Source of the DNA: Bdellovibrionales bacterium
Lineage (GTDB): Bacteria > Bdellovibrionota > Bdellovibrionia > Bdellovibrionales > UBA1609
Direction of reading: 5' to 3'
Length of the DNA stretch: 38,995 nt
Assembly: GCA_020850475.1 (NCBI GenBank)
Contig: JADZEO010000107.1
Location: 1 to 38,995 of the forward strand
In this document: one piece after another, positions 5,922 through 27,926 of the stretch
Position numbering within the stretch: the stretch's first letter is position 1
How the letters are laid out: each line of letters begins with the position of its first letter
Made by a program: the position numbers and the translations under genes
Notes under the pieces: generated by a model
The model's database searches: none
Told to the model about the DNA's origin: nothing
The model's input: only the letters and a program-made list of their open reading frames with translations

Positions 5922-5982
5922 GGTAATGAGTTTCAGCGAGGGCTCAATCGCGTAAGCGGGATGGGCCCGGTGGGAGTGAGAA

Positions 5983-6936: not shown

Positions 6937-6984
6937 TTCCTTATTTGGTGCGGTGCCATAGCTAGAATTCTCGATTGCTGCGCA

Positions 6985-7013
6985 TTGACTAAAGGTACGA
7001 GGTCACCTAATTT
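6985..7013 (+). promoter_or_regulatory. candidate sigma-70 promoter
   Basis: TTGACT at 6985-6990 matches the -35 consensus at five of six positions. Exactly 17 bases later comes TAATTT at 7008-7013, a weak -10. Transcription would start near 7020, just before the GAGGAGA ribosome site at 7022-7028 and ATG 7036. It is a good positional fit, but the -10 is poor. Confidence 0.35.
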
Positions 7014-7035
7014 AGTCCGACGAGGAGACCCTCAT

Positions 7036-7578: not shown

Positions 7579-7605
7579 GGCGATTGATTTCACGAAACGG
7601 ATTTT

Positions 7606-8621: not shown

Positions 8622-8645
8622 AAGAACCTCACAAAATGGTGGTGC

Positions 8646-9641: not shown

Positions 9642-10939
9642 ATCACAATTCCTGCAATTGCCGCGGTCAAAAAGGCCGCGAGGCTACCCCCGATTACAGA
9701 ACGAATTCCGAGTTCTGCCAAGTCGGATTTTCGGGTGGGCGCGATTCCGCCAATGCCGCCGATCTGGATGGCGATGGACGAAAAGTTGGCAAATCCACAG
9801 AGTGCGTAGGACAAAATAACAATCGTGCGGTCGGTCAACTGGCTGGCCAGCTGGGACATATGTAAATAGGCAACGAACTCATTCAAGACAACCTTTTCAC
9901 CAAGGAGGGTTCCCGCCACCCCCGCTTCGTCCCAGGAAATGCCCATCACCCAGGCCATGGGCGCAAAAAGCCAGCCCAGGATAACTTCAAAAGTGAGTTC
10001 GGGCGGTTTGTCGCCGCGAATGAGGTGGGGAACGGCATCGACTCCCCATTGGTCAAAGCCAATCCCGGCGCCGATGGACTTGAGGACCGCATTAATGAGA
10101 GCGATCAAGGCAATGAAAGCCAGGAGCATGGCTGCGACGTTGAGGGCGAGGGAGAGACCTTCGCCAGCGCCGCGGGCTGCGGCTTCAATCAGGTTGCGAT
10201 CGATTTTTTCTTCGACCGACTTGGGAACCGAGCCGAGGGTTTCCGGTTTGTTTTTTTCGGGGATCATGAGTTTGGAAATGGCCAAGGCCGCCGGAGCGGA
10301 CATCACACTGGCGGTCAGTAAGTGCCCCGCAATTCCGGGAATGCGATCTTTCAGCATCATGGTATAGGCGGCCATGACTCCGCCCGCGACCGTGGCCATG
10401 CCCCCCACCATGACGGCAAAGAGCTCGGAGCGCGTCATGTTGGTCACAAAGGGGCGCACGAGCAATGGAGCCTCGGTTTGTCCCACGAAAATATTGGCCG
10501 AGACGGCGAGCGATTCGGCTCCGCTGATCTTCATGGTTCGCACCATGACCCAAGCAATAGCCCGCACGATCGCTTGCATGATTCCCAAGTGGTAGAGGAC
10601 CGCCATCAAAGACGCCATAAAGATAATCGTTGGGAGTACTTGAAAGGCAAAAATAAAACCAGATTTACTTGGGTCCAGCATTTGGCCAAAAATAAACCGA
10701 CTGCCTTCTTCGGTGTATCTCAGGACGGCGAGGATGGCGTCATTCGCCCAGCCAAAAAGGGGAGATAAGGGGCCGGTAAACCCGAGGGCGGGCACGCCCA
10801 GCACCAAGAGGGCAAGAATCAACTGCAGTCCCATCCCCCAGCCCACTAACTGCCAAGAGACGCGCCGACGGTCGTCGGAAAGCAAGTAAGCGATTGCCAA
10901 AAACACAATGAGGCCTGAAAAGCTGATAATCCGTTCCAC
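9638..10939 (-). CDS. nupC: concentrative nucleoside transporter, NupC/CNT family
   Basis: A 433-aa polytopic membrane protein. The motifs G-Q-T-E-A-P-L-L-V-R-P (substrate site), G-G-M-A-T-V-A-G-G-V and C-G-F-A-N-F-S-S-I-A-I-Q-I-G-G-I-G form the hallmark set of the CNT family, which imports nucleosides with H+ or Na+. Length is normal for the family. The start is GTG 10939, with AGGGGG upstream. It is the first clear gene of a three-gene minus-strand operon with the hydrolase and the CopD-like gene. Ion and nucleoside specificity cannot be decided by eye. Confidence 0.92.
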   Translation of the reverse strand: MERIISFSGLIVFLAIAYLLSDDRRRVSWQLVGWGMGLQLILALLVLGVPALGFTGPLSPLFGWANDAILAVLRYTEEGSRFIFGQMLDPSKSGFIFAFQVLPTIIFMASLMAVLYHLGIMQAIVRAIAWVMVRTMKISGAESLAVSANIFVGQTEAPLLVRPFVTNMTRSELFAVMVGGMATVAGGVMAAYTMMLKDRIPGIAGHLLTASVMSAPAALAISKLMIPEKNKPETLGSVPKSVEEKIDRNLIEAAARGAGEGLSLALNVAAMLLAFIALIALINAVLKSIGAGIGFDQWGVDAVPHLIRGDKPPELTFEVILGWLFAPMAWVMGISWDEAGVAGTLLGEKVVLNEFVAYLHMSQLASQLTDRTIVILSYALCGFANFSSIAIQIGGIGGIAPTRKSDLAELGIRSVIGGSLAAFLTAAIAGIVI

Positions 10940-11050
10940 CCCGGGTCCCCCTGTAGCTCATGTATAGGATGAGAAATGCCGACTCAAAATCGCCTGCGGT
11001 GGGAGTTGACTACCAAAGTCGCTGGCATCTGGGAAGCCTTCTTTACCGGA

Positions 11051-11179
11051 TCACCATGTCAAAGAATTGCCAGCCAATTGGTTAAGTTCGCGGCGCTGCG
11101 ACTGGGCATGGGCTTCGACGTAAACCACCGATAGGAGCAGTAAACTCAGAATTAAGAATTCGATGAGGCGACGAAGCAT
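11051..11179 (-). CDS. possible 42-aa membrane or exported peptide
   Basis: In the 338-base gap between nupC and the ATP-grasp gene, ATG 11179 opens a 42-codon frame. It encodes M-L-R-R, then a hydrophobic Leu/Ile-rich run (about residues 6-20), then E-A-H-A-Q-S-Q-R-R and a polar tail ending in Trp. This is a plausible single-span membrane peptide, or a signal peptide with cleavage after A-H-A. The ribosome site is weak (AGGG about six bases upstream). It is co-oriented with both neighbours. The rest of the gap holds only AT-rich sequence (11219-11260) with no other convincing gene. It could be chance. Confidence 0.3.
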   Translation of the reverse strand: MLRRLIEFLILSLLLLSVVYVEAHAQSQRRELNQLAGNSLTW

Positions 11180-11277
11180 AAGGGCCCTGCACGGTTAAGT
11201 GAGAAACAGTCAACGCCTACATATATAAATGAGTGAGAGTTAAAATTCTAGAGAGCGAAAGTCGGTTTGGGAATTTT

Positions 11278-12153
11278 TCAAACGAGTCGGCGGGCCAAGG
11301 CTTGCGCCAGTCGGGCGGCGCTCGAAGGATCAAACTCGAGGAAAAGTTGCGGTTCAATCAATTCCAGCTCGATCAATGCCCATTGCTCCGTCTCAGGGTG
11401 GCGGATCAAATCAACTCGGGCGTAGAGGGGTGATTCGGGAAGTAGATCAAGGATTCGCCGGCCCACTTTGATGGCATCGGCCGAGGGTCGGCAGGGCTTG
11501 GTGAAGCCTCCGTACTTTTCTTGAACGCGAAAGTCACCGCGCTTGGGGATCTTTTGAACCGCATGTGAGAATTCTTGATCAAAGAACACTAAGGACCATT
11601 CCCCTTCTTGGGTGATCGAGGGCAAAAACTCTTGGATCATGAGCGGACCCCACCCACCCTGCTGGTAGGCCGCGGCCTGAGCGGGATAGGTGGCAGGAGA
11701 CTCGAGCAAATAAGTGCCACGGGCCGAGGCCGAAACCTGGGGTTTAAGCACCCAACTTTTGCTGGGACCACCCGAAGGCCAAAGCATCGCGCCTTGGACG
11801 TCCTGAATTTGGTCGTACCAAAAAGTGAGGGGGATGGCGACCCCTTGCATTTCCAGATCGCGGAGGTAGGTTTTTGTGGAATTCCACTCGATGAGGGGCA
11901 GACGATTGAACAGGGGCCGATTGGTCTGACTGAGGTTACGGAGGGTGCGCAAAAATTCGTTTAAATGTCGGGTATAGTCCCAGGTGGTGCGTATGAGGAC
12001 TGCCCCCGTTGGGTGGGCCGAGCCATTGAGTCTCTGCCATGGGACAAACTCGGTATTAAAACCCAGGGTCTGCAGTTGCGTCAAAAGCAGTCGATCCTCG
12101 GCGATGGGTTCAAGGATTTCATTGCAAGTGAGCAAACTGACGGTTTTGGCCAT
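11278..12153 (-). CDS. ATP-grasp domain enzyme (RimK/DcsG-like)
   Basis: A 291-aa protein of the ATP-grasp superfamily, enzymes that join a carboxylate to an amine or thiol through an acyl-phosphate. An early R-T-T-W-D-Y motif (about residues 54-59) is typical of the glutathione-synthetase/cycloserine-type DcsG branch. It is followed by a W-V-L-K-P-Q-V-S-A nucleotide-binding segment with a glycine loop, then E-F-L-P-S-I and E-G-E-W-S-L, and a late R-V-D-L-I and E-L-E-L-I-E-P with Mg-binding acidic residues. Its product cannot be named. It is transcribed divergently from the hydrogenase operon, with 55 bases between the two starts. Confidence 0.8.
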   Translation of the reverse strand: MAKTVSLLTCNEILEPIAEDRLLLTQLQTLGFNTEFVPWQRLNGSAHPTGAVLIRTTWDYTRHLNEFLRTLRNLSQTNRPLFNRLPLIEWNSTKTYLRDLEMQGVAIPLTFWYDQIQDVQGAMLWPSGGPSKSWVLKPQVSASARGTYLLESPATYPAQAAAYQQGGWGPLMIQEFLPSITQEGEWSLVFFDQEFSHAVQKIPKRGDFRVQEKYGGFTKPCRPSADAIKVGRRILDLLPESPLYARVDLIRHPETEQWALIELELIEPQLFLEFDPSSAARLAQALARRLV

Positions 12154-12195
12154 GACTTGAGGCTAATGGGTTGTTTTGGCCGAAGCAAGCTGCTT
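12143..12195. promoter_or_regulatory. direct repeats and a dyad in the divergent ATP-grasp/hydrogenase-operon gap
   Basis: GTTTTGGCC occurs at 12143-12151 and again at 12173-12181, exactly 30 bases apart (about three helical turns on the same DNA face). A short dyad AAGCA-AGC-TGCTT covers 12183-12195. The pair straddles the ATP-grasp start and precedes the first gene of the hydrogenase operon, where an activator or repressor would sit. No convincing -35/-10 pair was found. The first copy overlaps the ATP-grasp coding start, so the repeat may be fortuitous. Confidence 0.25.
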
Positions 12196-12208
12196 AAATG
12201 TTTTCTCT

Positions 12209-14377
12209 ATGAACCGGGCTCGAGCTTTGTTTGTCAAAACTCCCGACGAATGCGTTCAGTTGATCATCGAGCGTGTGGGTCCCGATTTGCGCGTGGCCAC
12301 CCCGTTGGCGGTCGGTAAACCCAACCAATTGCTGAATGCGCTTTATCAGCGAGTTAAGCAGGACTCGTCCTTGAGTCTGACCTTGTACACGGCCCTCACT
12401 TTAGAAAAACCCAAAGGGCGTTCCGACCTCGAGCGCCGCTTTGTCGAACCGATGGCGGCCCGATTGTTCGCGGATTATCCCGACTTGGACTATGAAGTCG
12501 ATCGGGTCAACGGTCGCTTGCCGAGCAACGTAAAAGTGATCGAATTTTATTTTCCGGCCGGCAAGTTCATGGAAAATCGCCATGCCCAGCAGGATTACAT
12601 TAGCGCCAACTACACTCATGTGGCCCGTGATCTGCTGGATCGGGGAGTGAATGTTCTGTGCCAGATGGTTGCCATTCGCCAGGCCTCCGACGGGAGCGCG
12701 GATGTCAGTTTGGGAAGTAATCCCGATGTGGCCGTTGATCTGATGACGGCCATGCGGTCGAGCGGTCGGCCCGTGGCCTTTGCCGCCCAAGTCAACGGTC
12801 AAATGCCCTTTATGTATGGCGACGCGCTCAAGAGTGCTGACGATTTTGATTTTGTGGTGGAAGACTCGCGCTGGGATTTTCCGCTGTTTGCCCCCCCTAA
12901 AACTTCGGTTCCGGAGGCGGAGTTTGCTGTCGGGGCCTATTGTTCTGCGCTGGTGCGCGACGGGGGAGAGCTGCAAGTGGGGATAGGGGCCCTCGGCGAT
13001 GCCGTGGTGTATTCTTTGTTGCTGCGCCATCAGCGCAACGAAGAGTATTGCCGCGTTTTGCGTGACCTGGGTGTCTTTGACAAGTTTGGGCCGCTGCTAG
13101 ATCGGCTGGGGGGCGCTGAGAGTTTTTCCGAAGGGCTTTTTGGGGCCAGTGAAATGGTGGTGGATGGTTTTTACCACTTGTTTAAGGCCGGTGTCATCAA
13201 GCGCAAGGTGTACGATGACTTGCCCTTGCAACGCTTGATGAACGAAAAACTGATCACCGAAATGGTGACCCCGGAAACCCTGGTGCATCTGGTGGCCCGC
13301 CGGGCGGTGCACGTGCGGTTGACCTTTGAAGACACGCGATATCTCAAGCAGTGGGGAGTCTTCCACGAGCGGGTGAAATGGAACGACGGCCATTTGGAGT
13401 TAGTCAATGGCGATCGGCGAATTCCAAATCTCGAAGACCCGGCGACTCGTCAGTGGGTCATGCAGTATTGCCTAGGCGAACGACTCAAGGGCGGCGCCGT
13501 GATTCATGGGGGATTCTTTTTAGGGCCGCGCTCTTTTTATGAGGGCTTACACCAACTCACTGAAGATGAGCGGCATTTGATTCAAATGCGCTCGGTTCGC
13601 AAAATCAACCAGTTGTACGGCCATGAGGAGTTGGATCGTCTGCATCGCAAAGATGCGCGGTTCATCAACACTTGTCTCAAAGTCACCTTGTTGGGTCATG
13701 TGGTATCCGATGCCCTTGAGGATGGTCGAGTGGTGAGTGGCGTCGGGGGACAATATAACTTTGTGTCGATGGCCCATGCGCTGCCTGATGGACGAAGCAT
13801 CATGAATTTGCGCAGCACCCGAGGGAGCGGCTCCACTCTGCAATCAAACTTGGTTTTTAAGTACGGTCATGTCACCATTCCTCGCCATCTGCGCGATTTG
13901 GTGGTGACCGAGTATGGGGTTGCAGATCTGCGGGGCAAAACCGACTCGGAAGTGGTTGGGGCTTTACTCAATGTGGCTGATTCGCGATTTCAAGAAGCTT
14001 TACGTCGAGAGGCGGTGCGCGCTGGCAAGCTCGCCAGTGATTATCGTATACCGGAAGTGTTTCGTCAGAATCGCCCCGAGCAATACCTCAGGGTACTCGA
14101 ACACTACCGCCACCAAGGACTGTTTCCGCCGTTTCCCTTCGGGACCGACCTCACTGAAATGGAAATTGTGGTGGGACGGGCCTTAAAGCTACTCAAAAAA
14201 AGGCTGCATCAGCCTCGAGAATTGGCGGCGGTCTTTTGGCGGGGTCTCAAGGTCAATCCTCAAGAGGCCAGGTACCGGTTGCCGCTCGAGCGGATGAAAC
14301 TGGCTGAACCGCGTTCGCTCAAGGAGCGCCTCTATCAGCGTTTACTTTTAGGAGCCTTGGTCGGGAGCGGCCGATGA
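12209..14377 (+). CDS. acetyl-CoA hydrolase/CoA-transferase family protein
   Basis: A 722-aa protein of the acetyl-CoA hydrolase/4-hydroxybutyrate CoA-transferase superfamily, which moves CoA between carboxylic acids or hydrolyses acyl-CoA. Recognisable parts are G-E-L-Q-V-G-I-G near residue 255 and, in the C-terminal domain, G-V-G-G-Q-Y-N-F (CoA-binding glycine loop), S-T-R-G-S-G and V-T-E-Y-G-V-A-D-L-R-G. It is longer than the usual 430-540 aa, with a large helical insertion in the middle, as in some proteobacterial relatives. I prefer ATG 12209; an in-frame TTG at 12176 is possible and neither has a strong ribosome site. Its stop overlaps the hydB start (ATGA), so it is part of the hydrogenase operon. 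Confidence 0.8.
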   Translation: MNRARALFVKTPDECVQLIIERVGPDLRVATPLAVGKPNQLLNALYQRVKQDSSLSLTLYTALTLEKPKGRSDLERRFVEPMAARLFADYPDLDYEVDRVNGRLPSNVKVIEFYFPAGKFMENRHAQQDYISANYTHVARDLLDRGVNVLCQMVAIRQASDGSADVSLGSNPDVAVDLMTAMRSSGRPVAFAAQVNGQMPFMYGDALKSADDFDFVVEDSRWDFPLFAPPKTSVPEAEFAVGAYCSALVRDGGELQVGIGALGDAVVYSLLLRHQRNEEYCRVLRDLGVFDKFGPLLDRLGGAESFSEGLFGASEMVVDGFYHLFKAGVIKRKVYDDLPLQRLMNEKLITEMVTPETLVHLVARRAVHVRLTFEDTRYLKQWGVFHERVKWNDGHLELVNGDRRIPNLEDPATRQWVMQYCLGERLKGGAVIHGGFFLGPRSFYEGLHQLTEDERHLIQMRSVRKINQLYGHEELDRLHRKDARFINTCLKVTLLGHVVSDALEDGRVVSGVGGQYNFVSMAHALPDGRSIMNLRSTRGSGSTLQSNLVFKYGHVTIPRHLRDLVVTEYGVADLRGKTDSEVVGALLNVADSRFQEALRREAVRAGKLASDYRIPEVFRQNRPEQYLRVLEHYRHQGLFPPFPFGTDLTEMEIVVGRALKLLKKRLHQPRELAAVFWRGLKVNPQEARYRLPLERMKLAEPRSLKERLYQRLLLGALVGSGR

Positions 14378-15501
14378 GTCGGATTTGGCGGGCGGAACTC
14401 AACGACCTCGATCGCTTGATTGCACAGCTTGGCCGTGAGGGTTTTGAAGTCATTGGTCCGCGGGTAGAGGGCCAAGCCATCAGTTACGGTCCTATCCAGA
14501 GAGTGGCGGATCTGCCTGTGGGCTGGACGGAAGAACAATCCGCAGGTCATTACCGTTTACGCCGCCGCAACGATCAAAGTGTTTTTGGTTTTACGGTGGG
14601 ACCTCAGGGCTGGCGGCGGTATCTTCAGCTTCCCAAGGAGAGTTTGTTCTCGGCGGACCGCAATCATCGGGGACAATGGCAGGTTCAGGAGACTCCAACG
14701 CTTGCACCCAAGCGGGCGTTACTGGGTGTGCGCAGCTGCGAATGGCAAGCCATTAAAATTCAAGATCGGGTTTTTGAGCGTCCGGGTTCGGTTGACCAAC
14801 CTTATCAGCGGCGACGCGAATCCTTATTCGCCATCGGTGTCGATTGTGTCACTTCGGCACCTACGTGTTTTTGCACCAGCCTGGGCGGAGGGCCCAAAGT
14901 CGGAGAGGGAGTGGATCTGGCTTTGACCGAGGTGGTGAATTCCCACCAGCATTTTTTCTTGATTCGCGCTGGGACCCCGCAGGGTGAAGGGCTGCTGACA
15001 AAATTAAACTTGGGAGTCGCCGACGCGATCCAAATTAAAGAGGGCGAACGGCGCATTGAACACACCCGCACCCAGGTCGCGGGACACTGGAAGGTGGATG
15101 TTAAACGCCTGCGTGAGGATTTGCTCGCGAACTGGAATCATCGGTATTGGGAGGAGTTGGGGAATAAATGTTTGGCCTGTGCCAACTGCACTCTCGTTTG
15201 CCCCACCTGCTTTTGTTCTAATACCGTCGAAGAGGTAAGTCTCGAAGGCGACCGTGTGGAGCGGTTTCGGCAATGGGACAGTTGCTTTACCGCAGATCAC
15301 GGTTACCTCCATGGGGGGCAAGTCCGTCCTGACGTGAAATCTCGTTATCGCCAGTGGCTCACCCACAAACTGGCCACTTGGCAAGATCAGTTTGGTGAAG
15401 TCGGCTGCACCGGCTGCGGCCGTTGTGTGGTTTGGTGTCCGGTCGGCATTGATTTACGACAAGCGGTCGAGGCTTTGGCCCAACCCGAGGGGGAACTATG
15501 A
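14374..15501 (+). CDS. hydB: group 3b-type hydrogenase beta subunit, iron-sulfur electron-transfer protein
   Basis: A 375-aa cytoplasmic iron-sulfur protein of the HydB/anaerobic sulfite reductase A family. It should pass electrons between the NAD(P)-binding subunit HydG and the NiFe module. Two ferredoxin-type [4Fe-4S] motifs are clear: C-x-x-C-x-x-C-x-x-x-C-P-x-C around residues 267-280 and C-x-x-C-x-x-C-x-x-x-C-P about 344-354. A further C-F-C-T-S-L-G-G-G-P cysteine motif lies near residue 166. The start ATG 14374 overlaps the CoA-transferase stop, and its own stop overlaps the next start, both as ATGA. Length and order match the bacterial and archaeal hydBGDA arrangement. Confidence 0.9.
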   Translation: MSRIWRAELNDLDRLIAQLGREGFEVIGPRVEGQAISYGPIQRVADLPVGWTEEQSAGHYRLRRRNDQSVFGFTVGPQGWRRYLQLPKESLFSADRNHRGQWQVQETPTLAPKRALLGVRSCEWQAIKIQDRVFERPGSVDQPYQRRRESLFAIGVDCVTSAPTCFCTSLGGGPKVGEGVDLALTEVVNSHQHFFLIRAGTPQGEGLLTKLNLGVADAIQIKEGERRIEHTRTQVAGHWKVDVKRLREDLLANWNHRYWEELGNKCLACANCTLVCPTCFCSNTVEEVSLEGDRVERFRQWDSCFTADHGYLHGGQVRPDVKSRYRQWLTHKLATWQDQFGEVGCTGCGRCVVWCPVGIDLRQAVEALAQPEGEL

Positions 15502-15974
15502 AGAGCGCGGAGATCAAGGCTTTGTTGTTGGCTCAACCCTTGTTCAAAGGGTTGGACGAGACTCAATTGTCCAGCCTTGCCAGTGAAGCCAAAGTAAAAT
15601 CCTTTCGGGCGGGACAGTATCTGGCGCACGAGGGTGAAAGTGCCGATGCATTTTATCTGCTGCTTGACGGGAGAGTGGAAATCTTGACGGATGCGGGGGC
15701 CAAAAAACAGGTTTTGCAAACCATTGGGCCCGGCGAAGTGTTCGGGTGGTCCTGGATAGTGCCGCCCTATCGTTGGAACTTCGACGCTCGCGCCGCGGTC
15801 GCCTCCCGCGCCCTGGTTCTGGCGGGTCAACCTCTGCGCGTGCGTTGCGAAGAGGACCCGCGCTTTGGCTATCAATTGATGAAGCGATTTGCCACAATCA
15901 TGGTGTCGCGCCTCAGAGCCACCCGATTACAGGTGCTCGATGTCTACGGGCGAGAGCCGTCGGCCCATCGATGA
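15498..15974 (+). CDS. cyclic nucleotide-binding domain protein without DNA-binding domain
   Basis: A 158-aa single-domain protein with the Crp/cNMP-binding beta-roll. It shows F-R-A-G-Q-Y-L-A-H-E-G-E (about residues 36-47), Y-L-L-L-D-G-R-V-E-I and a G-P-G-E-V-F-G-W phosphate-binding-cassette region. A long helix follows to the C-terminus, but there is no helix-turn-helix, so it is not itself a Crp/Fnr regulator. It sits between hydB and hydG with ATGA overlaps on both sides, and similar proteins occur in other group 3b operons as far as I recall. Likely role: a bound regulatory subunit sensing a cyclic nucleotide. The cassette lacks an obvious R-S/T-A-S motif (it reads F-D-A-R-A-A-V), so cNMP binding is uncertain. 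Confidence 0.85.
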   Translation: MKSAEIKALLLAQPLFKGLDETQLSSLASEAKVKSFRAGQYLAHEGESADAFYLLLDGRVEILTDAGAKKQVLQTIGPGEVFGWSWIVPPYRWNFDARAAVASRALVLAGQPLRVRCEEDPRFGYQLMKRFATIMVSRLRATRLQVLDVYGREPSAHR

Positions 15975-16795
15975 ATTCCTCTTCGTTAACCCCGCAAGTC
16001 TGGACGGTTCAAAACAAACGTCAGGAGACCGACGACGTGTGGACCCTCACCTTGGCGCGCAAGGGCGGGAAGTGTGAGTTTCTACCGGGTCAGTTTAACA
16101 TGATCGGGGCTTTCGGGAGCGGCGAAGTGGCGATTTCGGTGAGTCAAGCAGGCACGACAGCCGGGCAGGTGATCCACACCATTCGCCGCGTGGGCCGCTC
16201 GACCTCGGCTCTGGTGGAACTCAAAAAAGGTGATCAAGTGGCACTTCGCGGGCCTTTTGGTCGCGGCTGGCCTCTGACGCAAGTGCGGGGACAAGATTTG
16301 ATCTTCGTGGCGGGGGGACTGGGCCTTGCTCCGCTTCGTCCTGCCATTCATCGGGTCCTTCAGCAGCGTGAGCACTACGGGCGCCTGGTGTTGATTTACG
16401 GGGCTCGATCGCCGGATCAACTCTTGTTTTTGTCTGAGGTCAAACGGTGGTCGCAGCGTCAGGGTTTCAAAGTGGAACTCACCGTGGATCATGCCACGCG
16501 CGGTTGGCGCGGCCATGTGGGGGTCGTCACCAGTTTGTTTGAAACTCTCAAGTTCGAGCCTCATCAAACTCACAGTCTGATCTGTGGGCCGGAAGTCATG
16601 ATGCGCTTTGTGGCTCTTGAACTGGAGAGCAAAGGACTGGGGCGCGAGCGCATGTGGTTGTCGATGGAGCGGAACATGAAGTGTGCGGTCGGCATTTGCG
16701 GCCATTGTCAGTATGGTTCGAGTTTTGTTTGCCAAGATGGGCCCGTTTATTCGTTTGACCAAATTGACCAGTGGCTGACACGAAAGGGAGTGTGA
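15971..16795 (+). CDS. hydG: group 3b-type hydrogenase gamma subunit, FAD/NAD(P)-binding reductase
   Basis: A 274-aa ferredoxin-NADP reductase-type flavoprotein that exchanges electrons between NAD(P)H and the hydrogenase. It has an N-terminal FAD barrel (F-L-P-G-Q-F near residue 37, G-P-F-G-R-G-W near 97), a nucleotide fold with V-A-G-G-L-G-L-A-P-L-R-P near 113 and I-Y-G-A-R-S-P, and a C-terminal [2Fe-2S] motif, C-A-V-G-I-C-G-H-C, with a further Cys 11 residues on. Start ATG 15971 overlaps the CNBD stop (ATGA); the same frame is open further upstream but that part is out-of-frame CNBD sequence. The stop lies one base before hydD. Confidence 0.92.
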   Translation: MNSSSLTPQVWTVQNKRQETDDVWTLTLARKGGKCEFLPGQFNMIGAFGSGEVAISVSQAGTTAGQVIHTIRRVGRSTSALVELKKGDQVALRGPFGRGWPLTQVRGQDLIFVAGGLGLAPLRPAIHRVLQQREHYGRLVLIYGARSPDQLLFLSEVKRWSQRQGFKVELTVDHATRGWRGHVGVVTSLFETLKFEPHQTHSLICGPEVMMRFVALELESKGLGRERMWLSMERNMKCAVGICGHCQYGSSFVCQDGPVYSFDQIDQWLTRKGV

Positions 16796-16796
16796 G

Positions 16797-17582
16797 ATGA
16801 CCCGGAGGCGTCCGCGGTTGGCGGTTTGGAAATTCACTTCCTGCGACGGGTGCCAACTCAGCTTGCTGGATTGCGAAGATGAGCTTTTGACTTTGGACCG
16901 GCATATCGACATTGCTTATTTTATGGAGGCCACCAGCCGGGCCGAGCCGGGGCCTTATGACCTGTCGTTAGTGGAAGGCTCGATTTCGACGCCTGAGCAA
17001 TTGGAACAGATCGTTCGCATTCGTGACCAGTCGCGAGTGGTGGTGGCGATCGGAGCTTGTGCCACGAGTGGGGGCCTTCAAGCTTTGCGCAACTTTGCCG
17101 ATATCGACGAGATGACCCGCGTTGTTTATGCCAGTCCCGCGCACATCCAGACCTTGAGTTGCTCCACCCCGATTTCCCAACACATCGCAGTTGATTTTGA
17201 GTTGCAGGGCTGTCCCATCTCCAAAACTCAGTTGCTCGAAGTCTTGGGGGCTTTTTTGCGGGGCGAACGCCCGGTGCTCCCCACCTACAGTGTTTGTGTC
17301 GAGTGTAAACTCCAAGGAGTTTTGTGTTTGTCCGTCAGCCAGGGGCGGACCTGTTTGGGACCCATCACCCAAGCTGGCTGCGGCGCTTTGTGTCCTCGTT
17401 ACGACCGCGGCTGTTTTGGCTGCTATGGTCCCAAGGAATTGTCTCAGCCTCGCGCTCTGGGAGAATTTGTTAAAGCCCAGCACAAGGTTTCGGATCGAGA
17501 TTGGGTGCGCTGGTTGCGCAGTTACCAGGCCGGCGCGAGCGAATTCGCCAAAGAAAGTGAACGTCATGAAAAAGACCGCTAA
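16797..17582 (+). CDS. hydD: group 3b-type [NiFe] hydrogenase small (delta) subunit
   Basis: A 261-aa small subunit carrying the iron-sulfur relay to the NiFe site, related to NADH-quinone oxidoreductase 20-kDa subunits. The proximal cluster motif S-C-D-G-C-Q is at residues 15-20, followed by V-E-G-S-I-S, I-G-A-C-A-T-S-G-G and G-C-P-I-S. A Cys-rich C-terminal part (C-V-E-C-K, C-L-G-P-I-T, C-G-x-x-C-P, C-F-G-C-Y-G) supplies further clusters. There is no signal peptide, so the enzyme stays in the cytoplasm. Its C-terminus overlaps the start of hydA by 17 bases. Confidence 0.93.
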   Translation: MTRRRPRLAVWKFTSCDGCQLSLLDCEDELLTLDRHIDIAYFMEATSRAEPGPYDLSLVEGSISTPEQLEQIVRIRDQSRVVVAIGACATSGGLQALRNFADIDEMTRVVYASPAHIQTLSCSTPISQHIAVDFELQGCPISKTQLLEVLGAFLRGERPVLPTYSVCVECKLQGVLCLSVSQGRTCLGPITQAGCGALCPRYDRGCFGCYGPKELSQPRALGEFVKAQHKVSDRDWVRWLRSYQAGASEFAKESERHEKDR

Positions 17583-19014
17583 AAAAACCTCGTCCAAATC
17601 AGTCGGCAAGTCAGCCGGCAAGTCAGCCGGCAAATCAGCCAGCAAGTCAGCCGCCAAGTCAGCCGGCAAATCTAAAAAGGCTCGGCGGCAAGCAAAACCC
17701 GTCCGCGATCGCCGGCAAGCGGCGACCAAAGTCATCAAGGTCGACTATTTGGCGCGGGTTGAAGGTGAGGGAGCCCTCTTTTTGAAATACCAACGGGGAA
17801 AGGTGGAGGAAGTGCGACTCAAAATCTTTGAGCCGCCGCGATTCTTCGAAGCCTTTCTGCAGGGCCGAGATTTTAGCGAAGCACCTGATATCACCTCGCG
17901 CATTTGTGGGATCTGCCCGGTGGCCTATCAAATGAGTGCCGTGCACGCCATGGAAAATGCTGCCGGAGTGGTTGTGCCGAAGGGAATTCGCCAACTGCGC
18001 CGGCTCTTGTATTGCGGGGAGTGGATTGAAAGTCACGTCCTCCATATTTACATGCTCCACGCTCCCGACTTCTTGGGCGTTCCCGATGTCATGACCATGG
18101 CTCGGCAATACAAAGACGAAGTCGAACGGGGCCTACGACAAAAAAAACGCGGCAATCTGATTGTGAAGACCCTGGGAGGGCGCGAAATTCATCCCATCAA
18201 TGTCAAAGTGGGGGGCTTTTACTCCTTACCGCCTTGGGAGGAATTAGCCCGGTTGCGCGAGGAATTGGTTCAAGGACGAGACGAGGCTTGGGCCACCTTG
18301 CGCTTTGTTAAAGGTTTTGAGTTTCCGGACTTCTCTCGCGAAGTTGAACTGGTGAGCTTAGTGAATTCGCAAGAGTATCCGATGAACGAGGGGCGCATTC
18401 GTTCCAGTACCGATCTCGACATTGCAGCGCAAGAGTTTGAAGCGCACTTTGAAGAAGAACACATCGCCTATTCGCATGCGTTGTTTTCGAAGCGTCGTGG
18501 GCGAGGAAGTTATTTGGTCGGACCGATGGCTCGGTTCAGCCTTAATTATCCGCAACTGAGCGCGGTGGCCCGGCAAGGTGCTGACGAAGTGGGGCTGGCA
18601 CCGGGTTGCCAAAATCCGTTTAAGAGTATTCTCGCTCGTGCCGTCGAAGTGCTTTACGCCTTTGACGAAGCCGTGCGACTCCTGGATAACCTCGAGAGAC
18701 CCGCTGGTCCGAGCGTGCCGGTGGAATTTACCCAGGCCGCACGAGGAGCATGGGCGACCGAGGCGCCGCGGGGTTTGTTGTATCATCGTTATGAAATCCA
18801 AGCGGATGGGTCGATTAATACCGCCCAAATTATTCCTCCCACTTCGCAAAATCAACGCACGATCGAAGAAGACGTACGAGAGCTGGTGTTGGCACATCCG
18901 GAATTGGACGAAGATCGTTTGCGCCATCGCTGTGAGCAGGCAATTCGTAATTACGACCCTTGTATTTCATGCGCCACGCACTTTTTGAAAATCAAAAAAG
19001 AGGTGGTCGCATGA
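17566..19014 (+). CDS. hydA: group 3b-type [NiFe] hydrogenase large (alpha) subunit with basic N-terminal tail
   Basis: A 482-aa catalytic subunit. The NiFe ligands are present: R-I-C-G-I-C-P (Cys114, Cys117) and D-P-C-I-S-C-A-T-H near the end (Cys466, Cys469, His472). Ten residues follow His472, the usual peptide removed by the maturation protease after nickel insertion. The catalytic core starts near residue 60 (V-D-Y-L-A-R-V-E-G-E-G) and has the normal length of about 425. Before it lies an unusual tail of about 55 residues made of Lys, Ser, Ala, Gly and Arg, including six K-S-x-x units. ATG 17566 has a purine-rich site upstream, and no in-frame start lies nearer the core that would give a complete N-terminus, so the tail is probably translated. 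The frame is open further upstream inside hydD but that is coincidental. Confidence 0.93.
   Translation: MKKTAKKTSSKSVGKSAGKSAGKSASKSAAKSAGKSKKARRQAKPVRDRRQAATKVIKVDYLARVEGEGALFLKYQRGKVEEVRLKIFEPPRFFEAFLQGRDFSEAPDITSRICGICPVAYQMSAVHAMENAAGVVVPKGIRQLRRLLYCGEWIESHVLHIYMLHAPDFLGVPDVMTMARQYKDEVERGLRQKKRGNLIVKTLGGREIHPINVKVGGFYSLPPWEELARLREELVQGRDEAWATLRFVKGFEFPDFSREVELVSLVNSQEYPMNEGRIRSSTDLDIAAQEFEAHFEEEHIAYSHALFSKRRGRGSYLVGPMARFSLNYPQLSAVARQGADEVGLAPGCQNPFKSILARAVEVLYAFDEAVRLLDNLERPAGPSVPVEFTQAARGAWATEAPRGLLYHRYEIQADGSINTAQIIPPTSQNQRTIEEDVRELVLAHPELDEDRLRHRCEQAIRNYDPCISCATHFLKIKKEVVA
17596..17673 (+). repeat. 12-bp minisatellite in hydA encoding K-S-A-G repeats
   Basis: Six tandem 12-base units (17596-17667) with consensus AAGTCAGCCGGC are followed by a half unit AAATCT. 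Each unit encodes Lys-Ser-Ala-Gly or a close variant (V for A; S or A for G). Two units are identical neighbours, and the others differ by one or two bases, as expected for growth by replication slippage. Because the unit length is a multiple of three, copy-number change keeps the frame. The repeat lies wholly in the N-terminal tail of the hydrogenase large subunit, just after the end of hydD. Confidence 0.92.
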
Positions 19015-19520
19015 GGCGTCCGCTCGTAATCGGAGTCGGCCAGCGGTGGCGTGGTGACGACGCTGAGGGGCCGCGCCTCGTGGAGCTGCTCAAGGGGAGT
19101 ATGGCTGACCTCGCTGATTTCTTGGTGATTGAGGGTGATCCACTTGAACTTTTGGACCATTGGGAAGGGCGATCCTGCGTGGTCATCATTGATGCTTACG
19201 AAGATTCTCGGCAGACAGGCGAAGTGCGCCATTGGTGTCTATCACCCCAAACCGCGATGACGGCACAGGACCTGCCATTTGTGACCGGCGGATTTTCCTC
19301 GCATCTCGTGGGACTGCCGGAGACTTTGAGGTTGGGTGAGGCCTTGGGACGAAATCCCAGTGAGATCCATCTACTGGGTATTCCCGCAAAGAATTTCGCC
19401 TTGGCGCAAATTCCACCGCCCTCAACGAACGGCGGACGGGCGGCGATGGAAAACGAGGTGATGCAAAGGGTGAGGAACATTCTCAACCGGGGAGTTGGAT
19501 CATGCATGAGTCAGGAATGA
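19011..19520 (+). CDS. hydrogenase maturation protease (HycI/HyaD family)
   Basis: A 169-aa endopeptidase that trims the C-terminal peptide of the large subunit once nickel is in place. It has the N-terminal G-V-G-Q-R-W-R-G-D-D-A-E-G loop (family pattern G-x-G-N-x-x-x-x-D-D-x-x-G; Gln replaces the usual Asn), an I-I-D-A-Y metal-proximal Asp, S-S-H-L-V-G-L-P with the conserved His, and I-H-L-L-G-I-P near the C-terminus. ATG 19011 overlaps the hydA stop (ATGA). It directly follows its likely substrate gene, whose product ends in a ten-residue extension after the last His. Confidence 0.88.
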   Translation: MRRPLVIGVGQRWRGDDAEGPRLVELLKGSMADLADFLVIEGDPLELLDHWEGRSCVVIIDAYEDSRQTGEVRHWCLSPQTAMTAQDLPFVTGGFSSHLVGLPETLRLGEALGRNPSEIHLLGIPAKNFALAQIPPPSTNGGRAAMENEVMQRVRNILNRGVGSCMSQE

Positions 19521-19768
19521 TTCGGTCTCTCGTCCATAAGATGAACGAAATCTCCCGAGCCAACGGGGGTGGCGCGATCGCGCTGGTGAAAATCCGAATC
19601 GGTGCCTTGGCAAACATCTCAGCCACCCACTTTCGGGAGCACTTTGAAATCGAAACGGTGGGCACCATTGCCGAAGGTGCGACTCTGGAAGTTGAAGAGC
19701 ACCAAGACCCCTCGGACCCTCATGCCGCGGAGATCGTCCTTGAAAGTGTCGAGGTGGAGCTCAAGTGA
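19502..19768 (+). CDS. hypA: HypA-type nickel chaperone lacking the zinc domain
   Basis: An 88-aa protein aligned by eye to HypA. It begins M-H-E, whose His2 is the nickel ligand, and keeps the first half (I-R-I-G-A-L, H-F-E-I-E-T-V-G-T-I-A-E-G-A, L-E-V-E-E) and the last strand (V-E-V-E-L). The normal 113-118-aa protein has two Cys-x-x-Cys pairs between those parts that bind structural zinc. Here they are replaced by a short linker, H-Q-D-P-S-D-P-H, and the whole protein has no cysteine. It overlaps the protease gene by 19 bases and the hypF start by four. Nickel delivery would therefore occur without the zinc-controlled contact to HypB; no hypB is present in this window. Confidence 0.85.
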   Translation: MHESGMIRSLVHKMNEISRANGGGAIALVKIRIGALANISATHFREHFEIETVGTIAEGATLEVEEHQDPSDPHAAEIVLESVEVELK

Positions 19769-22059
19769 ATGTGACTCGGAGGCGATTGTCATTAACGGGC
19801 TTGGTTCAGGGCTTAGGGGTCAGGCCCTTTGTGTACAATTTAGCTCGCGACCTGGGCCTTTCAGGATTTGTGCAAAATACTTCCGGTGGATTATTGGTCG
19901 AAGTCCAAGGGCCCGAGATGCGACTGGATGAGTTTGCCTTGCGACTTCGAAGCGAAAAACCGCCGTTGGTGGAATTCCGCAAGTGGGAGGAACAAAACTG
20001 CGCCGTGGATTTGTCTGGCGAGAATTTTTCTATTCGTGAGTCGAGTGAAGACAACCAACGCAGCTCTTGGGTGTTGCCGGATTTGGCGATGTGTCCTGAG
20101 TGTCGGTCTGAGATTTTTAATTCTCAAGAACGTCGATATCGGTACCCGTTTACTAATTGCACCTATTGTGGCCCGCGCTATTCGATAATTGCCGGTCTGC
20201 CCTATGACCGACCGAGAACCTCGATGGCCCGCTTTGCCATGTGTGAGTCGTGTCGGTCCGAGTATGAGGATCCGACGAACCGGCGCTTTCATGCCCAGCC
20301 GATTGCCTGTGCGGATTGTGGACCGCAGGTGGAGTTGTGGAATTCCCAAGGTGAGGTGCTCTTCTGCCGCGAACAGGCCTTGGCTCAGGCAGTCGCAGTC
20401 TTGCGGCGAGGTGAGATACTCGCAGTCAAGGGTTTGGGTGGGTTTCACTTGTTGGTTGATGCCGAAAATGGTGAGGCGGTTGCACGCTTGCGCCAGCGCA
20501 AACGACGTGGGGACAAACCCTTTGCAGTGATGTTCAATTCCCTGGAGGCGGTCCAGGCCGTGGCCTCGGTCTCCGAAACCGCGTCATCGTGGCTGACCAG
20601 CTCCGTTCAACCCATTGTTTTGGTTCGTTGTCATGACCAAGTAAAGTGGGCAGACAGTGCTCCTGGGCAAAATTATTTGGGAGTGGTGCTCCCTTATACG
20701 CCCCTTCATGCTTTGCTGCTCAGCGATTTTGGTCGGCCTGTGGTTTGTACAAGTGGCAATTTGTCGGAAGAACCCATTTGCATCGATGAGCATGAAGCCT
20801 TGGCCAAGCTCAGTGGCATCGCGGATGCCTTACTGGTGCACAACCGTCCGATTTTGCGCGCGGTCGAAGACTCGGTTCTTCAGGTGGTCGGCGGGCGACC
20901 AATGGTTTTGCGTCGAGGCCGAGGTTTGGCTCCCAGTGTTTGGCCGAGTGCAGACGAAACGGCAACCGTCAGCTTTGCTCTCGGCGGAGATTTAAAGCAT
21001 GCCATGGGAATTGCCCGCGGCCAGGAGTTCATCTTGGGTACCCACGTGGGTGATGTGGCGGAAGCCGAGGCCTATGCCCAGATGGTGAGTGAAGTGAAGT
21101 CGTGGCGAGAGTTTTTTGCAGTTAAAGATCCAACCTACTTGGTCGACTGTCATCCCCAATACCACACCCACCAATGGGCGTGGTCTCAGAGTCAGAAGGT
21201 CGCCGAGTTGCAACACCATCGCGCTCATGTTTGGTCGCTTTGGGCTGAGCACGGTGGGCCCCAGGAAGATTTTGCGGTTGTGTGGGACGGCTCGGGGCTT
21301 GGGGAAGATGGCAGTATTTGGGGCGGAGAATTCTTGGTCGGCGGCAGCGATGGTAATTTGTTGCGCTGGGGCTCCTTGCGACCCTTTCAACTGTTTGGTG
21401 GTGATCGCGGCGTCCGCGATTGTCGTCGCAGTGCTTGGTCTCTGTTAACTGACACCTTGGGTGAGAGTTGGTCATCGGCCTTCGGGTGGCCTCAGGAATT
21501 TCTCCCGAGTGCGGGTGAATTGGCGTTGTTCCAGTGCAAATCGGGTCGACCTTCGTGGCCGACCACCAGCATGGGACGAATCTTTGATGCGGTGGCCGCA
21601 ATTTTGGGTTTGGTTGCAAAGCCCGTCAGTTTTGAGGGACAAGCTGCCATGCTTTTGCAAGCGCAAGCCGAATTGAGTGACCAAGTGAGTGCGCCGTTTA
21701 CCTGGGAGTGGATTCAGCACGACGGCCTGTGGCAGGCCGACTGGCGGCCGATGATTCGCGCGCTCGTTGAGGAACTGGGCCGGGGCGCAAGAGTGCCCGA
21801 ACTGGCGCGGCGGTTTCATCTGAGCCTGGTGCAAATGATAATGGTGGGCTGGCAGCTTCAGCGGCCCCGATCGCGACGGATGATTGTAGCGGGCGGATGT
21901 TTTCAAAATAAATTATTGCTCGAGTTGCTTATCGAGAGGTGTCAGCAGGAGCAGATTGAAGTGGCCTGGCCGCAACTGAACCCCCCGAATGATGGAGGTT
22001 TGGCCTTGGGGCAATTGGCCTGGTGGAAGTTTCAACAAAGGAAAAAAACATGTGTTTAG
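19765..22059 (+). CDS. hypF: carbamoyltransferase HypF
   Basis: A 764-aa enzyme that turns carbamoyl phosphate and ATP into the carbamoyl group passed to HypE for making the CN ligands of the NiFe site. Domain order is canonical: an N-terminal acylphosphatase-like domain (G-L-V-Q-G-L-G-V-R-P-F-V), a paired zinc-finger region (C-P-E-C, C-T-Y-C-G-P, C-E-S-C, C-A-D-C-G-P, about residues 107-190), a YrdC-like domain (K-G-L-G-G-F-H-L, K-R-R-G-D-K-P-F-A-V-M) and a C-terminal Kae1-like domain (H-H-R-A-H and G-G-C-F-Q-N). GTG 19765 overlaps the hypA stop (GTGA). The stop overlaps hypC by ten bases. Confidence 0.95.
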   Translation: MNVTRRRLSLTGLVQGLGVRPFVYNLARDLGLSGFVQNTSGGLLVEVQGPEMRLDEFALRLRSEKPPLVEFRKWEEQNCAVDLSGENFSIRESSEDNQRSSWVLPDLAMCPECRSEIFNSQERRYRYPFTNCTYCGPRYSIIAGLPYDRPRTSMARFAMCESCRSEYEDPTNRRFHAQPIACADCGPQVELWNSQGEVLFCREQALAQAVAVLRRGEILAVKGLGGFHLLVDAENGEAVARLRQRKRRGDKPFAVMFNSLEAVQAVASVSETASSWLTSSVQPIVLVRCHDQVKWADSAPGQNYLGVVLPYTPLHALLLSDFGRPVVCTSGNLSEEPICIDEHEALAKLSGIADALLVHNRPILRAVEDSVLQVVGGRPMVLRRGRGLAPSVWPSADETATVSFALGGDLKHAMGIARGQEFILGTHVGDVAEAEAYAQMVSEVKSWREFFAVKDPTYLVDCHPQYHTHQWAWSQSQKVAELQHHRAHVWSLWAEHGGPQEDFAVVWDGSGLGEDGSIWGGEFLVGGSDGNLLRWGSLRPFQLFGGDRGVRDCRRSAWSLLTDTLGESWSSAFGWPQEFLPSAGELALFQCKSGRPSWPTTSMGRIFDAVAAILGLVAKPVSFEGQAAMLLQAQAELSDQVSAPFTWEWIQHDGLWQADWRPMIRALVEELGRGARVPELARRFHLSLVQMIMVGWQLQRPRSRRMIVAGGCFQNKLLLELLIERCQQEQIEVAWPQLNPPNDGGLALGQLAWWKFQQRKKTCV

Positions 22060-22295
22060 GAGTGCCGGGCAGAATCGAAAGCATCAGTGGCGAAGGCTTG
22101 TTGCGCAGAGGTCAAGTGAGTTTTGCGGGGGTGGCGCGCGAGGTGGCCTTGACCTATGTGCCGGAAGCCAAGGTGGGCGACTTTGTAGTCGTTCATGTTG
22201 GTGTGGCCATCTCAGTCTTAAGCGAAACGCAAGCCCAACGAGCCTTTGATGCCTATCGCGAACTTGAAGGAGATCCCAATGAAGTTTGTGACTGA
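22050..22295 (+). CDS. hypC: hydrogenase assembly chaperone HypC
   Basis: An 81-aa HypC/HybG protein beginning M-C-L-G-V-P-G. Cys2 is the conserved residue that holds iron with HypD and contacts the large subunit. ATG 22050 is required to expose that Cys; the in-frame sequence further upstream belongs to hypF read in another frame. AAAGGAA lies just upstream as ribosome site. A small beta-barrel (V-G-D-F-V-V-V-H-V-G-V-A) is followed by a C-terminal helix as expected. It overlaps hypF by ten bases and hypD by 17. Confidence 0.93.
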   Translation: MCLGVPGRIESISGEGLLRRGQVSFAGVAREVALTYVPEAKVGDFVVVHVGVAISVLSETQAQRAFDAYRELEGDPNEVCD

Positions 22296-23373
22296 GTTTC
22301 GCGATCGCGAACTGGTAGAACGGGAAGCCAAGCGCATTCATCAAGTGGTGACTCGCCCTTGGCGCATCATGGAAGTTTGTGGCGGGCAAACCCACGCTCT
22401 ACTCCGGTATGGCCTCGTCAGCCTTTTGCCGGAACAAGTTAAGTTGATTCACGGACCTGGCTGCCCCGTGTGCGTGACTCCCATCGAAGTGCTGGATTGT
22501 GCGGTGGCTTTAGCGGAACAGCAGGGAGCCATTCTCTGTTCTTTCGGCGATATGCTTAAGATTCCGGCGTCCAACGGCAATTTGTTTCAATGCCGAGCCC
22601 GCGGTGGCGATGTGCGAGTAGTGGATTCTCCGCTTGAAGCTTTGTCCCTTGCCCAGCAGAATCCCCATCGCGAAGTGGTCTTTCTCGCCGTCGGTTTTGA
22701 GACCACCGCTCCGGCTCATGCGCTGGCGGTGTTGCAGGCGCGTGAGTTGGGACTGAGCAACTTTTCTTTGCTGGTGTCTCACTATTTGGTTCCCCCTGCC
22801 TTGCGGTTGATTCTCAGTAATCCGAAGGCTCAGGTCGATGGCTTTTTGGCGGCGGGACATGTTTGTACAGTGATGGGAGCTGAGGAATATCGGCCGATTG
22901 TCGAAGAATTCCAAGTGCCGATTGTTGTGACTGGTTTTGAACCAGTCGACTTGATGCAAGGAATTCGCATGGTCGTGGAACAACTGGAAGCCGGCCGCGC
23001 AGAGCTCGAGAATCAATATGTCCGCAGTGTGGCGACTCAAGGCAACCCGACGGCGCGCGCGGCGATTGCCCAGGTTTTCGAGCCGATCAAGCAAAATTGG
23101 CGGGGATTAGGAAGTTACGACGAAAGTGGTCTTGGGCTTAGAGCGGATTTTGCTCACTTTGATGCCCGCAAGAAATTTAACTTGAACTTGGTACCTGCGG
23201 CCGCCAATTCTTGCTTAGGTGGTGACATTATGATGGGCATTAAGAAGCCTTGGGACTGCGAGAAATTTGGCAACGAATGCTCGCCGGATCACCCGCTGGG
23301 TGCGCCCATGGTGTCGGCCGAGGGAGCTTGTGCGGCTTATTTTAAATACGAAATGACGGAGAAACCCACATGA
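22279..23373 (+). CDS. hypD: hydrogenase iron-center assembly protein HypD
   Basis: A 364-aa [4Fe-4S] protein forming the scaffold, with HypC, on which Fe(CN)2CO is built. Hallmarks are M-E-V-C-G-G-Q-T-H (active Cys), H-G-P-G-C-P-V-C-V-T-P, G-F-E-T-T-A-P, C-S-F-G-D-M, and a C-terminal Cys group (N-E-C-S-P-D-H-P-L-G-A-P, E-G-A-C-A-A-Y) for the cluster. ATG 22279 has GAAGGAGA seven bases upstream, inside hypC, one of the strongest ribosome sites in the operon. The stop overlaps the hypE start (ATGA). Confidence 0.95.
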   Translation: MKFVTEFRDRELVEREAKRIHQVVTRPWRIMEVCGGQTHALLRYGLVSLLPEQVKLIHGPGCPVCVTPIEVLDCAVALAEQQGAILCSFGDMLKIPASNGNLFQCRARGGDVRVVDSPLEALSLAQQNPHREVVFLAVGFETTAPAHALAVLQARELGLSNFSLLVSHYLVPPALRLILSNPKAQVDGFLAAGHVCTVMGAEEYRPIVEEFQVPIVVTGFEPVDLMQGIRMVVEQLEAGRAELENQYVRSVATQGNPTARAAIAQVFEPIKQNWRGLGSYDESGLGLRADFAHFDARKKFNLNLVPAAANSCLGGDIMMGIKKPWDCEKFGNECSPDHPLGAPMVSAEGACAAYFKYEMTEKPT

Positions 23374-24395
23374 ACCAAGACAACTCCCGCATTATTTTAG
23401 CCCACGGCAACGGTGGCAAATTGCAGGCGGATTTGCTGGCCAATTGGATTTTTCCAGAGTGGGGTGGAGTCGTACTGCCCGCCGATCGCGACAGTCAAAT
23501 CATGCCGTGGTCGTCCTCGCAACTGGTTATGAGTACAGATTCCTTCGTCGTTGATCCCTTGTTTTTCCCAGGGGGCGACATTGGTCACCTGGCTGTCTGT
23601 GGTACTACCAACGATCTCGCCATGAGTGGGGCTGAACCACGATTTTTAATGTGCAGTTTTATCCTGGAGGAAGGTTTACCCTTAAATGATCTGAGGCGCG
23701 TGGCGCGGTCCATTGGTCAAGTGGCTCGAGAACTCAAACTCCAAATTGTCGGTGGCGACCTAAAGGTGGTGGAGCGGGGCAAGGGTGACGGGATGTTCAT
23801 TAATACTTCGGGAGTGGGTTGTTTGAGAGGGGGCAAAACTCCAGGCCCCGAACGTCTTCGTCCGGGACAGCGAGTGCTGGTGAGTGGCGACTTGGGTCGG
23901 CATGGACTGGTGGTGTTGCTGTCACGCGAGGGAATTCAGTTCACCTCTGAACTCCAGTCGGACTGTGCGCCGCTGTGGCCTGCCGTTCGAGCGCTTCAGG
24001 ATGCTGCCATTGACCTCAAATGTTTGCGTGACCTCACTCGCGGAGGTTTGGCGACGGCGCTTCACGAACTTGCGCAGTCTTCGGGACAATCTTTTTTGAT
24101 TCACGAAAATCACCTGCCGTTGCTCGAGCCGGCGCGGGGAGCCTGCGAGGTTTTAGGAATCGAGGCCGTTTACTTAGCGTCGGAAGGCACGATGTTGGTG
24201 GTGGTGGACGAAGAGGACGTGGCACCGACTCTCGAAATTTTGCGAGCCCGATCCGGGCACCAGCTGGCTTGCGAAATCGGGCAAGTGGTGAGCACCAACC
24301 CCGATCTTGGTCCTGAGACGCGACTTCAGGCCGAGTGGGGAGCTCCGCGACGACTCGGGCCGCTGCTCTATGAAGCCTTGCCGCGAATCTGCTAG
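23370..24395 (+). CDS. hypE: carbamoyl dehydratase HypE
   Basis: A 341-aa AIR-synthase-like ATPase that dehydrates the carbamoyl group on its C-terminal cysteine to thiocyanate, the CN donor. It starts with H-G-N-G-G near residue 11, has the STDSFV motif (M-S-T-D-S-F-V-V) and G-D-L-K/D-L-T-R-G-G-L-A-T, and ends P-R-I-C, the terminal Cys required for the chemistry. It is the last gene of the compact hydrogenase operon; a gap of 241 bases separates it from cheY. Confidence 0.95.
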   Translation: MNQDNSRIILAHGNGGKLQADLLANWIFPEWGGVVLPADRDSQIMPWSSSQLVMSTDSFVVDPLFFPGGDIGHLAVCGTTNDLAMSGAEPRFLMCSFILEEGLPLNDLRRVARSIGQVARELKLQIVGGDLKVVERGKGDGMFINTSGVGCLRGGKTPGPERLRPGQRVLVSGDLGRHGLVVLLSREGIQFTSELQSDCAPLWPAVRALQDAAIDLKCLRDLTRGGLATALHELAQSSGQSFLIHENHLPLLEPARGACEVLGIEAVYLASEGTMLVVVDEEDVAPTLEILRARSGHQLACEIGQVVSTNPDLGPETRLQAEWGAPRRLGPLLYEALPRIC

Positions 24396-24601: not shown

Positions 24602-24636
24602 ATGGATGCTGGCCGAGATATCAGAAGGGAGTCGGC

Positions 24637-25050: not shown

Positions 25051-25060
25051 GGATACAACT

Positions 25061-25588: not shown

Positions 25589-25590
25589 GT

Positions 25591-27916: not shown

Positions 27917-27926
27917 AGGAGGATTT

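Follow-up and report, generated by a model that had tools for sequence, protein, structure and literature searches.

In this Bdellovibrionales genome a gene for a CoA-transferase stands at the head of a [NiFe] hydrogenase operon and overlaps its first hydrogenase gene, hydB. In the reading which we consider most probable (about 0.72), a known type of hydrogenase operon, group 3b-like, has undergone a lineage-specific extension, and this reading does not make the two enzymes a metabolic module. The hydrogenase operon, which is rare in the class, would have been set behind a type of CoA-transferase which is commoner in the class, and the two would have become one gene run in this lineage. As judged by sequence comparison, the pairing looks local to the lineage and not a conserved partnership among the genomes we have searched. 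That two genes overlap tightly in one genome does not by itself make them functional partners. The window, which is the whole stretch of DNA analysed, is the entire contig C107 (38,995 bp) of a 3.9 Mb genome in 175 contigs. Its features in the region of interest are the following, with the source of each assignment in brackets:

12154..12208, no strand: divergent intergenic region of 55 bp, likely place of the operon promoter (coordinates)
12209..14377, + strand: CoA-transferase/acyl-CoA hydrolase-family gene, 722 aa (ORF, Pfam, fold model)
13151..13153, + strand: GAA codon of Glu315, counted from the ATG at 12209 (profile alignment to Glu238 of 3gk7)
14374..14377, + strand: ATGA stop/start overlap of the CoA-transferase gene and hydB (sequence)
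14374..15501, + strand: hydB, 4Fe-4S subunit, sulfhydrogenase beta-like (Pfam, NCBIfam)
15498..15974, + strand: cNMP-binding-domain protein, HoxI in the Hyd-3b cluster in the excerpted text of PMC12319191 (Pfam)
15971..16795, + strand: hydG, FAD/NAD(P)-binding subunit (Pfam, NCBIfam)
16797..17582, + strand: hydD, hydrogenase small subunit (Pfam, NCBIfam)
17566..19014, + strand: hydA, [NiFe] hydrogenase large subunit with a Lys/Ser/Ala-rich N-terminal tail (Pfam, NCBIfam)
19011..19520, + strand: hydrogenase maturation protease, HycI-like (Pfam, NCBIfam)
19502..24395, + strand: hypA (from 19502), hypF (19765), hypC (22050), hypD (about 22279) and hypE (23370) (Pfam, NCBIfam)

We have named hypC from its translation, and the start codons of hydG, hydA, hycI, hypC and hypD were picked by us from the ORF data.

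The CoA-transferase ORF extends on the + strand from the ATG at 12209 to the TGA at 14377. Its 3' end has the ATGA at 14374–14377 in common with the start of hydB, exactly as a preliminary description of this DNA had stated. The complete run has 12 genes, from 12209 to 24395, in the order CoA-transferase, hydB, cNMP gene, hydG, hydD, hydA, protease, hypA, hypF, hypC, hypD and hypE. All of its 11 junctions are either overlaps or a 1-bp gap. The same coupling had been claimed for the hydrogenase genes themselves, and in fact 4-bp overlaps are found at five further junctions: hydB/cNMP (15498), cNMP/hydG (15971), hydA/hycI (19011), hypA/hypF (19765, here GTGA) and hypD/hypE (23370). Among gene pairs not belonging to the operon, the 13 co-directional ones listed include 3 with a 4-bp overlap. 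Since overlaps of four bases are the usual packing here, at 6 of 11 junctions, the ATGA junction carries no special signal. The neighbour on the 5' side (11278–12153, minus strand) is divergent and lies 55 bp apart, which agrees with the proposal that the CoA-transferase is the first gene of the operon; this neighbour is ATP-grasp-like, with a match slightly under the Pfam cut-off. A consensus scan of 11900–16000, confined to promoters of the sigma-70 type, gave none on the + strand and 2 promoter-like sites on the minus strand, the mean in shuffled sequences being 1.6. From the gene layout, the CoA-transferase and hydrogenase genes are probably on one mRNA.

The 722-aa CoA-transferase matches nothing but itself in a search of its own genome. 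It had been assigned to the acetyl-CoA hydrolase/transferase family; the fold, a candidate glutamate and the C-terminal Pfam domain (AcetylCoA_hyd_C, residues 439–602, the only Pfam match) agree with this assignment, while the N-terminal half is invisible to Pfam and is recognised by profile and fold only. A profile of 8 relatives has its best match in the 4-hydroxybutyrate CoA-transferases (3gk7, E 4.3e-32). The structure model, built from 37 sequences, has a mean pLDDT of 92.3 and a pTM of 0.92, and its best fold match in the PDB is also 3gk7 (E 1.9e-28, target-normalised TM 0.81). According to this predicted model the protein would have the fold of the class I CoA-transferases. Glu315 is invariant in the 37 aligned sequences and aligns with Glu238 of 3gk7, which we take to be the catalytic residue of that enzyme, so it is a candidate catalytic glutamate. 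Against the NCBIfam models of CoA-transferases for acetate, butyrate and succinate it scores 33–39 bits, where the cut-offs are 500–740; with scores so low its substrates cannot be named. Its mechanism is most likely that of class I: a glutamyl-CoA thioester would form on Glu315, and CoA would pass from one acyl group to another. We infer that the exchange is probably between a small acid and an acyl-CoA which comes from the degradation of fatty acids or amino acids.

The hydrogenase appears to be NAD(P)-linked and group 3b-like, by the matches of its subunits. The translation of hydA has a NiFeSe_Hases match and contains both of the nickel-binding CxxC motifs which define a [NiFe] large subunit, RICGIC and DPCISCATH. 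The four subunits of an NAD(P) enzyme are all present: beta with Fe-S, gamma with FAD/NAD(P), delta and alpha. Among NCBIfam models, hydB, hydD and hydA each score best with a sulfhydrogenase subunit; hydG scores best with a cytochrome-c3 hydrogenase gamma subunit, with the sulfhydrogenase gamma models in 4th and 5th place, and all these matches are under the curated cut-offs. The cluster also has the cNMP-domain gene of the HoxI variant. Of 41 hydrogenase loci, 27 have a cNMP match in the vicinity of hydB; relatives are counted by a close hydB, so that not all of them bear HoxI. A hydrogenase of this kind would link NAD(P)H and H2 by electron exchange.

For the comparison of the pairing with other genomes, a hydB or CoA-transferase match is called close when its E value is below 1e-50. 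A close CoA-transferase is present in 7 of the 40 other genomes with a close hydB (9 of 40 have a match at E up to 1e-6), and it is adjacent to hydB in none of the seven. These genomes are G193, G428, G966, G1165, G1129, G040 and G207, the last one with the shorter form of the enzyme. The two genes share a contig in G1165 (about 92 kb apart) and in G1129 (about 389 kb); in the other five they are on separate contigs. For example, contig C8 of G040, a genome of the same order as ours, has the CoA-transferase; the hydrogenase lies on contig C14, where rnc-era-der precedes it. The stretches fetched around hydB in genomes with both genes contain no close CoA-transferase, and there is none beside hydB in the 25 loci of a test defined beforehand. 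The preliminary description had proposed to examine the gene order in relatives and had named unlinked genes as the outcome which would refute its idea; this outcome is what all seven genomes show. It had also remarked that the pairing is not a standard one, and with this we agree: we found no such pair in the titles and abstract openings of the literature searched.

The search from the side of the CoA-transferase gives the same picture. At least 585 GTDB loci have a CoA-transferase match, and among the 80 best of them one (L034) has a recognisable hydrogenase in its flanks; it is Vhu-like, on the other strand, convergent, and lies behind hyp genes. In this search the hydrogenase subunits of the window were the queries and the flanks were often ended by contig edges. 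With 0 of 7 genomes and this single locus, we reject a conserved pair of CoA-transferase and hydB for the genomes searched. A second candidate, L049 in genome G326, was rejected as a chance result: its hydA matches are weak and both ORFs have no NCBIfam family. A hydB match is found in 15 of 49 CoA-transferase genomes (from 50 of the 80), and it is close only in G322, on another contig; this is the same genome as G193 and the one which contains L044.

Two further CoA-transferases were observed in these genomes. G207 has a different one of 426 aa, divergent and 62 bp from its cNMP-hydB genes, and in G1129 one of 439 aa is separated from hydB by about 20 kb. A real tie might be indicated by either of them.

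The two genes differ in their distribution. In a set of 58 relatives, which includes our genome and no other of the same genus, 20 have some CoA-transferase match, 8 have a close one of the long form and 2 have a close hydA, namely our genome and G040. Within the class, 9 of the 143 genomes, counting ours, have a hydA match of any strength. A close hydB occurs in 7 of 240 genomes of the home phylum, again with ours, and in 2 of 58 of one class of this phylum. In the phylum to which G326 belongs the count is 9 of 398; two of its orders give 14 of 239 and 14 of 234, a third one 3 of 78. These sets overlap one another. In the CoA-transferase tree the window falls in a clade of 14 rows (SH-aLRT 95) with nine of the ten rows that carry a label of the home phylum or its kin, the window included; the tenth, G040, is just outside. 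The clade also takes in rows titled Gammaproteobacteria, Proteobacteria and Bacteroidetes. In the hydrogenase tree, which like the other was built with a quick method, the window is found among rows of the home phylum and of the order of G428. This placement has no starred support (forks 85–93), so that it is mainly the patchy occurrence of the hydrogenase which suggests its horizontal spread. The likely course of events is that a hydrogenase operon spread by transfer was joined, once, to a resident CoA-transferase gene of wider occurrence.

Among hydrogenase loci, an acetate/PEP-type gene, by which we mean a CoA-transferase, an ADP-forming acyl-CoA synthetase or a PEP synthase, is present at 5 of the first 16 loci: the window, G207, G190, G193 and G450. 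One of the 16, L206, has only 0.3 kb upstream. In G190 the acyl-CoA synthetase is inside the hyp genes; in G193 and G450 the PEP synthase is directly upstream of hydB, with an 8-bp gap and a 4-bp overlap respectively. A test of this theme, set down before the 25 new loci were collected, gave none of the three genes in any of them. A few misses are possible in this count, as L220, L221, L228 and L233 have only 1.4–2.2 kb upstream of hydB and L236 (G967) is made of hydB and cNMP fragments only. On the new loci we reject, as a general rule, the idea that the locus is a hot spot for genes of the acetyl-CoA/PEP node. The identified upstream genes at other loci are diguanylate cyclases, a GDSL lipase, a MobA-like transferase, a curlin-repeat protein, a thioesterase, a response regulator and a CobW-type protein.

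It is possible, and we put it forward tentatively, that the CoA-transferase and the hydrogenase have only their regulation in common: they would be under one promoter for low-oxygen survival, with no coupling of substrates. This is compatible with the reading as a lineage-specific extension, and the odds of the two overlap. The PEP synthases directly 5' of hydB in G193 and G450 speak in its favour. Two of the five annotated plasmid records with hydB (a sixth has no annotation at the locus) also have a PEP synthase nearby, as the second gene upstream in Burkholderia savannae and the third in Rhodococcus qingshengii, and three plasmid loci have universal stress, slipin or CBS genes in their vicinity. 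The recurrence in plasmids fits a loose neighbourhood of low-oxygen genes, but such a neighbourhood is not borne out by the test set, where PEP synthase is found at 0 of 25 loci, and no PEP synthase is annotated at three of the five annotated plasmid loci.

A true metabolic module is unlikely. In such a module, while lipids or amino acids of the prey are degraded under oxygen limitation, the CoA-transferase would recover or set free the CoA of acyl-CoA and the hydrogenase would dispose of the excess NAD(P)H as H2, the overlap fixing the ratio of the two proteins. That both genes are in one gene run agrees with it, as do the CoA-transferase beside cNMP-hydB in G207 and the acyl-CoA synthetase within the hyp genes of G190. 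A further point comes from plasmids, where 57 records have a CoA-transferase match. Five alphaproteobacterial ones were read, and in each a beta-oxidation operon with an acyl-CoA dehydrogenase, a thiolase and a hydroxyacyl-CoA dehydrogenase/enoyl-CoA hydratase gene has a relative of about 615 aa as its last gene. These five stretches have no annotated hydrogenase. Against the module stand the genomes, with the two genes non-adjacent in seven of seven, the 25 test loci, and the five annotated hydB plasmid stretches, whose incomplete annotation lists no CoA-transferase. The long form of the enzyme, moreover, is seldom found next to beta-oxidation genes: among the 80 best-matching loci (at least 585 in all), 5 have a thiolase in their flanks and none has an acyl-CoA dehydrogenase or a hydroxyacyl-CoA dehydrogenase there, and none of these genes is annotated at the long-form plasmid relative in Pseudoalteromonas (one record). 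To call the long form a beta-oxidation gene from its context is thus a weak proposal. The preliminary description had tied the H2/NAD(P)H balance to acyl-CoA or short-chain acid metabolism; with the genes apart in seven of seven genomes, the comparison removes the support for this, although the operon may be connected metabolically with the breakdown of acyl-CoA.

A related reading is also unlikely: a single operon which serves as fermentative outlet for the breakdown of prey lipids or amino acids at low oxygen, with G207 as an independent second case. The CoA-transferase would then yield acid and free CoA, and the hydrogenase H2. Bacteria of the Bdellovibrio type are best known for predation; if the metabolic link were true, it would give this group a fermentation route to H2. 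As for a fusion of two unrelated pieces in the assembly of the metagenome, the window is a whole contig out of 175 and just this one genome shows the junction, but the ATGA is exact and in frame, a plausible ribosome site (gggag) precedes the ATG of hydB and the composition is even, with GC levels of 0.553 and 0.560 on the two sides of the junction, so that we regard such an artefact as very improbable.

The lineage-specific extension which we prefer can be compared with several known systems. The closest known structure to the CoA-transferase is the 4-hydroxybutyrate CoA-transferase of Clostridium aminobutyricum (3gk7), with the same fold and an aligned glutamate. The identity in the fold alignment is 20%, and the window protein, at 722 aa, exceeds the 447 aa of 3gk7; it has an insert near residues 335–425 which shorter relatives lack, and a longer C-terminus. 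The succinyl-CoA:acetate CoA-transferases AarC/Ach1 (4eu9, 8dh7) belong to the same superfamily, but with 14% identity and a weaker fold match than 3gk7; the PDB title of 4eu9 states a covalent glutamyl-CoA thioester. The alphaproteobacterial enzymes of about 615 aa (L243, L244, L246–L248) are of the same family, with 42–45% identity over 85–86% of the query; they lack the insert, as seen for L244, and have other operon partners. On the side of the hydrogenase, the excerpted text of PMC12319191 gives a Hyd-3b cluster in 'M. acidophilus' 29 which includes HyhL, a large subunit of group 3b, as well as HoxI, a protein with a cNMP domain. Compared by gene content and not by order, the window cluster has the large subunit and HoxI in common with it, next to the remaining subunits and the hyp genes, and adds the CoA-transferase gene at the front and the Lys-rich tail of hydA.

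The gene immediately 5' of hydB is a PEP synthase in G193 and G450, two genomes from separate phyla whose hydrogenase loci were compared with the window:

L164 (G193), 620–3058: PEP synthase, 8-bp gap to hydB
L202 (G450), 9684–12098: PEP synthase, 4-bp overlap with hydB

On plasmids of Burkholderia (L238) and Rhodococcus (L240) a PEP synthase is found as the second or third gene 5' of hydB.

Genes for an acyl-CoA synthetase or a CoA-transferase are found at other hydrogenase loci:

L162 (G190), 1446–3584: ADP-forming acyl-CoA synthetase gene inside the hydrogenase operon, with hypF on one side and hypD on the other
L163 (G207), 8233–9513: 426-aa CoA-transferase of the 4-hydroxybutyrate type, divergent from the cNMP-hydB genes, 62 bp apart
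L034 (MAG labelled Bacteroidetes), 4625–14432: close CoA-transferase (50%), convergent with a run of hyp and Vhu-like hydrogenase genes, about 180 bp between them

In G040, a relative of the same order, the coding sequence of the CoA-transferase (L022, 7651–9401) is divided between two reading frames: it is either a pseudogene or an assembly error.

Downstream of the hyp genes of the window, after a gap of 202 bp, there is a group of chemotaxis genes:

24598–31510: response regulator, CheX, CheA, CheW, MCP and a CheB/CheR fusion

The large subunit of the hydrogenase in the window has an extended N-terminus:

17566–17735: N-terminal extension of hydA, about 55 residues, rich in Lys, Ser and Ala, histone-tail-like

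The N-termini could be read in 43 of the 45 loci, and a clear Lys-rich tail is present in two of these 43, the window and G040 (L021), where its sequence is different. Two further hydrogenase loci, L160 and L162, have shorter Lys-rich N-terminal stretches, with unclear start codons.
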